64,000 bases of DNA from Lachnospiraceae bacterium (lineage in GTDB: Bacteria; Bacillota; Clostridia; Lachnospirales; Lachnospiraceae), in contig JAMPGL010000002.1 of assembly GCA_023663945.1 (NCBI GenBank), positions 62,001 to 126,000 on the forward strand, in the 5' to 3' direction. Position 1 is the stretch's first letter. Each line of letters opens with the position of its first letter. Position numbers and translations under genes: made by a program. The notes below the pieces were generated by a model. That model did not search any database. It had not been told where the DNA came from and was given only the letters and a program-made list of their open reading frames with translations. Of this stretch, positions 7,359 to 10,849 are shown one piece after another.

Positions 7359-8711
7359 ATGAAATTTCAAATTGACAAAAAATATATCCGCATTGGTGTT
7401 ACCGCGTTTGCCGTAATAGCAGCATCCATCTGCTTTTATTATCTAATTTTTCACGGCGACCGGTTTTCCAATCAGATCAATGCATTTTTTGCGGTGATCA
7501 GTCCTGTTATGTATGGAATTATCATTGCTTACCTGCTGACCCCGCTTGTCAACGGCTTAGAAACCTACCTTTTAAAACCGCTTTTGGAGAAGCTGAATAG
7601 AACCAGCATCCGCTCCAAGAAGCATATGCGCGGCATTTCTATTATCGTAACGCTTATTATTGTGGGAATGTTGATTTACGCATTTTTTTCCATATTAATT
7701 CCAAACATTGCGAACAGCATCCGGAGTATTGCCATTCAATTTCCTAATTATATTGAAAATCTGACCAATTGGTCCACACAGTTTTTGGCGGATAATCCGG
7801 ATATTGAGGCAATGGTTATTCGTTTTTTGGATACTTATTCGGAAGAATTTTATGGTTATCTGAATAATACCCTTGTTCCTCAGATGGAAACCATTGTAAA
7901 ACAGGTTTCCTTAAGCATGATCAGCCTGTTAAAAATTCTTTGGAATTTTATCATTGGTTTTGTCATTTCTATTTATGTTATGTACAGTAAGGAAACCTTC
8001 GCCGGTCAGGCAAAAAAGATAGTTTATTCCATTTTGCGCACACAGACGGCAAACCAGTTTATTAAAGACGTCCGCTTTGCCAGTGACACCTTTATCGGAT
8101 TTATCAGTGGAAAGATCATTGACTCGATCATTATCGGATGTATCTGCTTTGTGGGAACCAGCATTATGAAAACGCCTTACGCACTGTTAGTCAGTGTTAT
8201 TGTAGGAGTGACCAACATCATTCCTTTCTTTGGCCCTTATTTGGGCGCAGTTCCCAGTGCCGTGTTGATTTTAATGGTCAGCCCGGTTAAATGTGTTTAT
8301 TTTATTATTTTTATTCTAATTTTACAGCAGATTGACGGCAATTTGATTGGACCTAAGATTCTTGGGCAGTCCACCGGTTTATCCGGATTCTGGGTGATTT
8401 TTTCCATCACAATCGCAGGCGGTATCATGGGGATTCCGGGCATGATTATCGGCGTTCCGTTTTTTGCGGTTTTATATGCATTTATCCGCCGTCATACCAA
8501 TGTGATGCTGAAAAAGCGCGGACTTCCCACGCAGACAGAAGAATACTTGAATGTGGATTATATTGACGAGAACTCTGCCTTTGTCCAAAGAGATACAGTT
8601 CAGAAGCCTAAAAGCTTTTTCCGGCTTGGCAGGCACCGTCCACAAAAGGAGCTTTCAGACGGTAATTCTTCCAGTCATCCAAAAGAAGCAGGAGAGCGGC
8701 AGGAGCGATGA
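7359..8711 (+). CDS. AI-2E family (PerM/YdiK/TqsA-type) transporter
   Basis: A 450-residue permease with eight or so membrane helices, opening with two hydrophobic segments (about 10-30 and 40-65). The conserved C-terminal block [20 protein letters not shown] and [14 protein letters not shown] is diagnostic of the family. Members export varied small molecules or act as Na+/H+ antiporters, so the substrate is open. The last about 60 residues are hydrophilic and cytoplasmic. AGGAGGG lies about 20 nt before this ATG, so the start is a little uncertain. The stop overlaps the dtd start by 4 nt (ATGA), implying translational coupling. Confidence 0.9.
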
Positions 8712-9160
8712 GATTTGTAATTCAAAGAGTAAAACAAGCAAATGTACAGGTGGAACAAAAGATTGTCGGTGAAATATCACAGGGATATTGCGTTTTTGTA
8801 GGCATCAAGGATACCGATAATCAGGAAATTGCCGACAAAATGATTCGAAAATTGCTGAATTTACGGATTTTTGACGACGAGGAAGGCAAAACAAATTTAA
8901 GTCTGGAAAATGTTCAGGGGGAATTGTTAATTATTTCACAATTTACATTATATGCAGACTGCCATAAAGGAAACCGTCCGTCTTTTGGCAGCGCGGGCAA
9001 ACCGGAATTTGCAAATCGCATGTATGAATATATTGTTCAAAAATGCTCAGAAATGGTTCCTCATGTTGCAAAGGGAGTTTTTGGCGCACATATGGAGGTT
9101 TCTTTGGTCAATCATGGACCCTTTACCATAGTCCTTGATTCCGATGACATCTGTAAATAA
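8708..9160 (+). CDS. dtd: D-aminoacyl-tRNA deacylase
   Basis: Removes D-amino acids (and glycine from tRNA-Ala) mischarged on tRNA; cytoplasmic dimer. Length 150 is typical. The N-terminus [13 protein letters not shown], the SQFTLYAD motif and the C-terminal NHGPFT block correspond to the SQFTL and NxGP(V)T active-site motifs; Phe replaces the usual Val of GPVT. The start overlaps the upstream permease stop. In many Firmicutes dtd follows relA; here that context is absent. Confidence 0.95.
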
Positions 9161-9235
9161 TTTCATTTGTGGTATTATTTGCAATAACTTTGAGGAACTA
9201 TCTGTAAAGGATGACGTTTATGTGAGGTAATTAAA

Positions 9236-9526
9236 ATGAAATTGCTGTTAATTGGAATTATAATTTTTTTGGTGATTTTGTATATCTATACCTTTGTCAG
9301 ATATAAAAAGCTTAAAAACAGCCATATAAGCGCTGTTGAAGAATTTAAACGCAAATATCACAAAGAACAATCCGATGACAGACTGGACATACAGAACGAT
9401 TCTTATAAAATATATGAAACAAAATTTAACAGCAATTTAGACTATATTGAACCGGAGGAATTGGTTAAAGAATGTCAGGAAATGAAAGAACCTAAGACAA
9501 AGAAATTTGGGAAATTGCAATTTTAA
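9236..9526 (+). CDS. Small single-pass membrane protein, function unknown
   Basis: A 96-residue protein with one N-terminal membrane helix (about residues 2-20, LLLIGIIIFLVILYIYTFV) and a charged cytoplasmic tail rich in Lys and Glu. GTGAGG precedes the ATG. The final codons (KLQF) and stop fall inside the first repeat unit of the array: the same bases, without an ORF, recur near 9645. Not assigned to a family. Confidence 0.55.
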   Translation: MKLLLIGIIIFLVILYIYTFVRYKKLKNSHISAVEEFKRKYHKEQSDDRLDIQNDSYKIYETKFNSNLDYIEPEELVKECQEMKEPKTKKFGKLQF

Positions 9527-9533
9527 AAGATGT

Positions 9534-9560
9534 GGTTAACATAATATAATTATGTAAACT
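9534..9560 (+). other. Candidate dif site 1 (Xer recombination site)
   Basis: Left arm GGTTAACATAA (9534-9544), centre TATAA (9545-9549), right arm TTATGTAAACT (9550-9560); the arms are imperfect inverted repeats. The right arm equals the B. subtilis dif XerD-side arm as I recall it, and the left arm matches the E. coli XerC-side arm GGTGCGCATAA at 8 of 11. The 5-bp centre is one shorter than the usual 6. A Xer-family recombinase gene starts 1.3 kb downstream and gene orientation flips nearby, both expected for a chromosome-dimer-resolution site. Confidence 0.7.
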
Positions 9561-9662
9561 ATATTCAAATAACTGCTGCAAGTTTAACGAATTAGTTGTG
9601 CCGTTACAGAATGTCCACTATGATAGCTGAATAATGGCATAATTTGCAATTTTAGAAGATGT

Positions 9663-9689
9663 GGTTAACATAATAAAATTATGTAAACT
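9663..9689 (+). other. Candidate dif site 2 (duplicate)
   Basis: Second copy of the same site, 129 bp downstream, with identical 11-bp arms (9663-9673 and 9679-9689) and centre TAAAA instead of TATAA. It is part of a duplication that also covers the flanking TTGCAATTTTARAAGATGT on the left and TTCAAATAACTGCT on the right. Confidence 0.6.
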
Positions 9690-10117
9690 TTATTCAAATA
9701 ACTGCTACAAGTTTAACGAATTAGTTGTGTCATTCTACAGAATCCATTATGATGCTTAATTAATAACACAACATTATGATACTACTGCAAGTTTAACGAA
9801 TTAGTTGTGTCATTCTTCAGAAACCATTATGATGCTTAATTAATAACACAACATTATGATAACTGCTGCAAGTTTAACGAATTAGTTGTGCCGTTCTTCA
9901 GAAACCATTATGATGCTTAATTAATAACACAACATTATGATAACTACTACAAGTTTAACGAATTAGTTGTGTCATTCTACACAGAACCAATTATGATAGC
10001 TGAATAATGACACAACTATTCGTTAAACTTGTGTTTTGCGAATAGTTGAATTTCGCTTCTTTCCCCTAATTTTATCCGCTAGACTTTATCCTCCACAACA
10101 AAAGGAATGGTTATACA

Positions 10118-10849
10118 ATGAAATTACAACAGGTATTAAGCTATATTCGCAGAGCCGTGGACGATTATCAAATGATTGAGACCGGAGATCAGATTGCTAT
10201 AGGGATTTCCGGTGGGAAGGACAGCCTTACTTTATTATATGGACTTCACGGGCTTATGCGGTTTTATCCGAAGCCTTTTCAGATACATGCGGTGACGGTA
10301 GACCTAGGATTTGATAATCTGAATCTTGAAAAAATTGAAGAACTGTGCAAATCCTTGGGAATCCCCTATACCATTGTCAAGACAGATATTGCAGACATTA
10401 TCTTTCACCAGCGGAAAGAATCCAATCCCTGCTCTCTGTGCGCCAAAATGCGCAAAGGCGCGCTAAACGAGGCAATTAAGGCGGCGGGCTGTAATAAGGT
10501 GGCGTATGCGCACCACAAGGATGATGTGGTGGAGACCATGCTGATGTCGCTGATTTTTGAAGGCAGATTTCACACGTTCTCGCCGGTAACTTATTTAGAC
10601 CGGATGGATTTAACGGTGATACGTCCATTAATGTATATGAATGAGGCGGATGTGATTGGTTTTGTCCGCAAAAATGATATTCCGGTGGTTAAAAGCCCCT
10701 GCCCTGCGGATGGGTACACAAAACGGGAATATGTCAAAAGTCTGTTAAAAAGCTTAAACAGGGAAAATCCCGGCGTGAAAGAACGGATGTTTACCGCAAT
10801 TCAAAACAGTACAATAGGAGGCTGGAATAGATATAATGGAGAACAGTAA
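10118..10849 (+). CDS. TtcA-family tRNA thiolation / PP-loop ATPase
   Basis: PP-loop ATPase of the TtcA/TilS superfamily that adenylates a tRNA base before sulfur transfer (2-thiocytidine-32 in TtcA). The PP-loop GISGGKDS is at residues 29-36. Cysteine pairs CSLC (NPCSLCAKMRKGALNEA) and a later SPCP provide the Fe-S/thiol residues typical of TtcA. Length 243 is shorter than E. coli TtcA (about 310), as in many Clostridia. AAAGGA precedes the ATG. It overlaps the recombinase start by 14 nt. The substrate base is inferred from family. Confidence 0.85.
   Translation: MKLQQVLSYIRRAVDDYQMIETGDQIAIGISGGKDSLTLLYGLHGLMRFYPKPFQIHAVTVDLGFDNLNLEKIEELCKSLGIPYTIVKTDIADIIFHQRKESNPCSLCAKMRKGALNEAIKAAGCNKVAYAHHKDDVVETMLMSLIFEGRFHTFSPVTYLDRMDLTVIRPLMYMNEADVIGFVRKNDIPVVKSPCPADGYTKREYVKSLLKSLNRENPGVKERMFTAIQNSTIGGWNRYNGEQ

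Follow-up and report, generated by a model that had tools for sequence, protein, structure and literature searches.

The two tandem 27-bp sites, named PAL here, which precede the gene of a XerS-like tyrosine recombinase in the analysed window (the whole 64,000-nucleotide, i.e. 64-kb, stretch of Lachnospiraceae DNA), are probably XerD-only sites of the replication terminus comparable to the XDS of Bacillus subtilis, and chromosome dimers would be resolved apart from them, by the XerS-like enzyme at a 34-bp dif. This 34-bp site is, judged from sequence, a likelier dif candidate of the XerS-like recombinase than PAL.

The sequence-only reading of this DNA had described two 27-bp sites with identical arms and different centres, 1.1-1.3 kb from a XerS-like gene. 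Coordinates and sequences were confirmed (Table 1), and the distances upstream of the gene were measured as 1,302 and 1,173 bp. PAL can be written as GGTTAACATAA-N5-TTATGTAAACT, with the same 11-bp arms in both copies. Just these two matches were found in the window with up to three mismatches (0.00 were expected from 100 shuffles), and in the 3.74-Mb draft assembly GTTNACATAA-N5-TTATGTNAAC occurred at two places only with at most one mismatch, the reversed-pattern control giving 0. The spacing of the arms was 5 bp in 14/14 exact arm pairs from 32 genus stretches chosen by xer, with none at 0-4 or 6-20 bp, and in 28/28 exact pairs across all stretches examined, some of which had been chosen by PAL itself. 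The arms are presumably those of canonical XerD sites, and the right arm, TTATGTAAACT, is what we take to be the right arm of the B. subtilis or canonical dif. Beyond this shared arm the two kinds of sites differ: the canonical XerCD dif is 28 bp long (11-6-11) and present in one copy per chromosome, whereas PAL has 27 bp, a centre of 5 bp, XerD-type sequence in both arms and a varying number of copies.

In the window a 129-bp tandem duplication passes into an 81-bp array, at the end of which the 34-bp palindrome stands, followed by the PP-loop gene and then by the XerS-like gene; the array and the palindrome at its end were absent from the earlier reading. The three-gene block, PAL and dif (7359-10047) are inverted together in the window genome relative to the other genus genomes, where the transporter gene and xer occupy opposite strands in 31/31 other loci in which the former was seen. 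As a consequence of this inversion PAL is nearer to xer in the window genome than at its usual position in the genus, about 3 kb upstream, and the genes of the block are still directed at PAL and dif despite the inversion.

Table 1. Sites, repeats and genes of the window, with related sites in other loci
Feature	Position	Strand	Basis or remark
PAL copy 1 (two inverted arms, candidate XerD type)	9534..9560	+	centre TATAA
PAL copy 2	9663..9689	+	arms as in PAL copy 1; centre TAAAA
Candidate dif of the XerS-like recombinase, AACTATTCGCAAAACACAAGTTTAACGAATAGTT	10014..10047	-	conservation; inovirus junction
129-bp unit, two copies, each with PAL and one half-dif	about 9512..9769	+	repeat analysis
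81-bp unit, about 3.9 copies, one half-dif per unit	9698..10016 (end approximate)	+
Half-dif copy 1, CAAGTTTAACGAATTAGTTGTG	9579..9600	+
Half-dif copy 2	9708..9729	+
Half-dif copy 3	9788..9809	+
Half-dif copy 4	9869..9890	+
Half-dif copy 5	9950..9971	+	surroundings pair with 10001-10032 (overlapping the dif candidate) in a strong hairpin
XerS-like tyrosine recombinase, 359 aa	10836..11915	+	PF00589 and PF02899 over cut-off
PP-loop gene, presumably TtcA-like	10118..10849	+	PF01171; overlaps the start of the xer gene
Three-gene block: transporter and dtd (presumed names), 96-aa ORF	7359..9526	+
34-bp-type sites in inovirus-type contigs	L227: 5183; L228: 2358, 8586
Loci with an inverted half-dif	window (9579-9971, 10001-10048), L053, L069, L070, L075, L076, L077, L079, L082

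The 34-bp site, a near-invariant imperfect palindrome, was recognized through genomes that have no PAL near xer. With at most three mismatches it was present in 30/33 genus loci; the remaining three were two short contigs (L054, L073) and L074 (genome G017), in which the site is 0.9 kb outside the stretch. Genome-wide it was detected in 32/37 genus genomes and at a single place in 30 of these 32, the exceptions being G019, which has two places and may mix strains, and G020, where the second place has three mismatches. Altogether 53/79 relatives, other families included, carried the site, and the control gave no match in all 79; close forms, with two mismatches, were seen in the other Lachnospiraceae Roseburia porci and Eisenbergiella porci. 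The distance to the nearest PAL had a median of 71 bp (10-1,295) in the 21 loci having both, and in the window the 34-bp site is 324 bp past the second PAL. It was found single, linked to the recombinase and near the flip of the GC skew, as befits a dif of the XerS type.

These observations bear on the claim that the two 27-bp sites are themselves the dif of the recombinase, for which a clear dif elsewhere in the genome had been named as contrary evidence: the 34-bp site is the better candidate for exactly such a dif. The arms were supposed to be kept beside the recombinase in relatives, which does not hold throughout, as six genus genomes have the recombinase and no PAL anywhere in the assembly; the 34-bp site is kept by five of these six, and the contig of the sixth (G024) breaks off at 1.1 kb from xer. 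A 28-bp dif of the B. subtilis type was not found in the genome, where the best match had one mismatch and fewer matches were obtained than with the reversed control.

The locus of PAL, dif and xer is the replication terminus. On the 148-kb contig the GC skew bins are positive to the left of the site and negative to the right, with position 10014 being 2.9 kb and the first PAL 3.4 kb away from the cumulative maximum, and in 32/33 genus loci (the exception being L074) the maximum is at most 4.1 kb upstream or 2.9 kb downstream of where xer starts. Most of the genes listed for 22 kb are directed at the locus from both sides. Of 19 KOPS-type octamers (GGGNAGGG) on the 148-kb contig, 17 are directed at dif, an orientation shared by other purine-rich octamers; it fits a terminus and largely repeats the GC skew. 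The proposal of a single-recombinase system of the XerS-like kind, situated at the terminus and linked to its dif, is supported by the nearby skew maximum and the linked 34-bp site. As to whether one 27-bp site per genome is typical, there are zero to three PAL places per genome among the 37 genus genomes, with none in eight.

Two near-identical contigs of a viral collection (L227, L228) carry an inovirus-type prophage, one end of which apparently coincides with the 34-bp site; a xerS-like gene follows 0.7 kb further on. The prophage has a replication protein (PF23343, 51.9 bits) and a Zot match of 19.5 bits, under the cut-off of 20.3. In L228 the left arm and the centre of the 34-bp site recur 6,228 bp away, matching what is expected for tandem attachment sites, so that the prophage appears to be in tandem. 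The inovirus junction supports the 34-bp site as a site of recombination, short of proof. Eight more contigs of the viral collection (L261-L268, among which L262 and L265 are near-duplicates) also have 34-bp dif-type sites, beside some of which terminase-like open reading frames were noticed by eye, as if phages or phage-plasmids exploited the XerS-like system of the host.

The best NCBIfam match of the window recombinase is XerS with 192.9 bits, and because this is below the cut-off of 267 the protein is regarded as XerS-like and not as a XerS equivalog. Orthologues were found in 33/36 genus genomes with at least 83% identity and in 23/24 genomes from other families of the order with 46-62% identity. 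The same genome contains, elsewhere, a XerD equivalog (351.8 bits; cut-off 329.6), whose gene adjoins a spoIIM-like gene (45.3 bits, below the cut-off of 100.2). An XerC-sized gene on C26 reached 240.7 bits to XerC (cut-off 335). XerC over the cut-off was not found among the three genes scanned against NCBIfam, and as these are three of 12 PF00589 matches, we infer that XerC is absent from the window genome. In L011 two single XerD-type arms (GTTTACATAA) were observed at positions 2371 and 2568, one of them 31 bp upstream of xerD and the other at the 3' end of the spoIIM-like gene, where XerD might bind near its own gene; single arms near xerD were absent from L258-L260.

The distribution of PAL follows XerD and not the XerS-like enzyme, with thin support once the tree is corrected for. 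Among the 33 genus genomes with a xer locus, XerD and PAL were found together in 24, XerD only in none, PAL only in 3 and neither in 6 (p=7.6e-5, ignoring kinship); in all 36 genus genomes the same classes counted 25, 2, 3 and 6 (p=0.001, ignoring kinship), and in the 25 genomes at least 90% complete 19, 1, 0 and 5 (p=1.1e-4, again ignoring kinship). In this scoring G013 and G021 were taken as XerD-positive with 313.9 and 318.6 bits, which are not full-length matches and stand just below the XerD cut-off. PAL without XerD was seen in G006, G017 and G034, which are 82-89% complete, many of the genomes being drafts in which an absence of XerD may be a gap; XerD without PAL was seen in G012 and G035, both also without a xer locus. 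When independent pairs were taken from the xer tree, all 33 rows gave six, three in the same way, none opposite and three with no difference (sign test p 0.25), and the 24 rows at least 90% complete gave three, all in the same way; three informative pairs are too few for significance. Outside the genus 42 of 49 PAL-bearing genomes, taken from 50 of 119 PAL loci, had a XerD-class protein with 282 bits or more (24 over the cut-off), and 7 had none at this level. Such a protein occurred in 7/24 genomes from other families of the order, and no PAL was near xer in 4/7 XerD-class families. The PAL-like sites of non-genus loci L085, L087 and L100 are weak (scores 12-15 vs 31-40), and all three belong to XerD-class genomes.

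In the genus PAL with at most one mismatch was detected in 29/37 genomes, with none from the reversed control, and near the xer/dif locus in most of the loci. Tandem copies are not peculiar to the window: G028 has two PALs 60 bp apart and G029 three about 61 bp apart, in both cases about 30 kb from xer and away from the skew flip, and L122 has two 113 bp apart. That the clusters of G028 and G029 were a relocated dif was considered and rejected, since the skew flip and the 34-bp site both remain at the xer locus. Extra copies that share a contig with xer are 24-126 kb from it, and dispersed single PALs stand at shared places in several members of the genus (L240-L242, L244, L248, L253, L254), beside genes which we take to be hisZ, leuD and yqeG-like. 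A Xer-type gene is contained in 35/119 PAL stretches of at most 8 kb, a figure with no control set alongside. In Tissierellia and some Bacilli another Xer-like recombinase gene, which shares 27-33% identity with the query, was observed at a distance of about 0.05-1.2 kb from PAL (L112, L121, L178, L198, L199, L219; L166, L187, L223, L225). A canonical-type dif was found in 2/8 Bacilli, one having a PAL-like site with two mismatches about 0.3 kb off, a level at which the reversed control was not empty (5 places vs 27 in 13 genomes), and the other an exact PAL 27 kb from the dif.

According to the model which we consider the most probable, PAL would consist of two XerD half-sites placed head-to-head across 5 bp and bound by two molecules of an orphan XerD, that is, a XerD without XerC. 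XerD at PAL would halt and unload the SMC rings reaching the terminus with no recombination taking place, and the XerS-like enzyme would resolve chromosome dimers separately, at the 34-bp site. If they are XerD-only and non-recombining, the tandem PALs would not need to delete each other. In B. subtilis the XDS contain the XerD arm sequence, are several per genome and have a role independent of dif; according to Karaboja et al. 2021, unloading of SMC by XerD reportedly requires neither XerC, nor dif, nor the catalytic residue. PAL is like XDS in the terminus location of its window copies, XerD arm sequence and several sites per genome. It is unlike XDS in that the scanned genes of this genome included no XerC and that the resolution of dimers is attributed to a XerS-like enzyme acting at a dif of unrelated sequence. 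PAL is also a symmetric double arm with a fixed 5-bp spacing, and it is likened to XDS by description and not by a published motif. The unloading of SMC complexes by XerD at the B. subtilis terminus is described in PMC10945525, PMC12322038, PMC8357415 and PMC13342612 and in three reviews (PMC13220808, PMC9733580, PMC8242196); PMC10945525 names the unloading site XDS, and PMC13342612 places the unloading at dif itself, which counts against an XDS-like reading of PAL.

The window recombinase and its 34-bp site resemble the XerS/difSL system of streptococci and lactococci, where a single recombinase of about 356 aa works with a linked, imperfectly palindromic dif (PMC5357621): here too there is one enzyme and a linked imperfect palindrome. 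The 34-bp site nevertheless has another sequence and an arm gap of 4 bp against the 11-bp centre of difSL, and the window recombinase is under the XerS cut-off; PAL does not resemble difSL. Elements that exploit Xer, e.g. the CTX-type inoviruses (IMEX), are described in the same paper (PMC5357621). The inovirus-type prophage of L227 and L228 resembles these in apparently ending at a dif, the 34-bp one, and differs in that the neighbouring host enzyme is XerS-like, not XerCD.

A purely transcriptional role of PAL, with no relation to Xer, is unlikely, whether as an operator, as a part of a promoter, or as a hairpin terminating in both directions between converging genes. PAL is mostly intergenic, with more convergent than divergent flanking genes (38 vs 11; 64 co-directional and 15 with open ends, at 128 PALs), its flanks are palindromic beyond the core in about half of the genus sites, both window PALs fold, as DNA, more stably than shuffled sequences (z -3.5 and -2.8), and PAL is overlapped by promoter-like matches, of which its region holds 14 vs 7.6 expected; yet no terminator match was found at PAL, its hairpin is weak (-4.8 kcal/mol), and both the core and the 5-bp spacing are fixed. 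A regulon was sought by clustering the genes neighbouring PAL and none was found, the neighbours being terminus gene families, and the loss of PAL together with XerD would be left unexplained.

Quite unlikely as well is genuine recombination at PAL by XerD alone, or a use of PAL as the attachment site of XerD-exploiting elements; the dispersed copies would then be scars of such events. The persistence of tandem copies and the freely varying centres (TATAA, TAAAA), which strand exchange disfavours, both argue against this, and no PAL-bounded element came into view in an inspection that was not systematic, even if the co-occurrence with XerD and the dispersed and tandem copies agree with it. The reading in which PAL, recently duplicated and unusual in its 5-bp centre, serves the XerS-like recombinase as dif was considered first and dropped once the 34-bp site appeared in genomes without PAL near xer, and it is now very improbable, because against the arms matching the presumed canonical right arm and the linkage to the XerS-like gene at the terminus there stand the six genus genomes that keep the recombinase without PAL, the two or three copies in several genomes, some far from xer, and a different, near-invariant and usually single 34-bp site resembling an inovirus attachment site.

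With XerD-only PAL sites and a separate 34-bp dif as the preferred reading, we tentatively suggest, as a wider idea somewhat more doubtful than not, that Lachnospirales have split two jobs of the B. subtilis XerD, dimers being left to the XerS-like enzyme and the 34-bp dif and SMC unloading to an orphan XerD, with the sites decaying once XerD is lost. If true, natural gene loss would show that SMC unloading alone can preserve XerD, dimer resolution would stand apart from XerD-dependent SMC unloading in a large group of gut bacteria, and a sequence rule for SMC unloading sites would be at hand. In addition, a dif candidate is supplied for the XerS-like recombinases of Lachnospiraceae, and it is seen that a scan for canonical-looking arms can hit a XerD site and overlook a likelier dif. 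Literature searches on the topic brought up PMC3025954, which describes canonical dif predictions, and PMC4876114, and otherwise found nothing.

The repeat array next to dif has features of its own. An invariant 22-bp block is common to its five units and corresponds to half of dif plus one additional base; an invariant run of this length arose in 1 of 20,000 column shuffles. An inverted half-dif was also found 39-61 bp beyond dif in 9/30 genus loci with dif, a count that leaves out L067 (4 mismatches) and seven rows of other families (the full tally being 10/37 with at most 4 mismatches), and its extra base is A in three, G in five and none in one. The half-dif might possibly be a decoy or accessory site of the recombinase, a terminator, or the scar of single-stranded phage integration. 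An integron attC was considered for the array and dropped, the array repeats being copies of half-dif. Comparison with Rfam gave microRNA matches only, all under the gathering scores. The inverted half-dif and the dif arm together form a strong hairpin (z -8 in the window), the inner stem of which co-varies: 39/45 positions pair, vs 177/360 when the flanks were swapped between genomes. A second, partial copy of the half-dif was present in L076, and five copies in the window alone.
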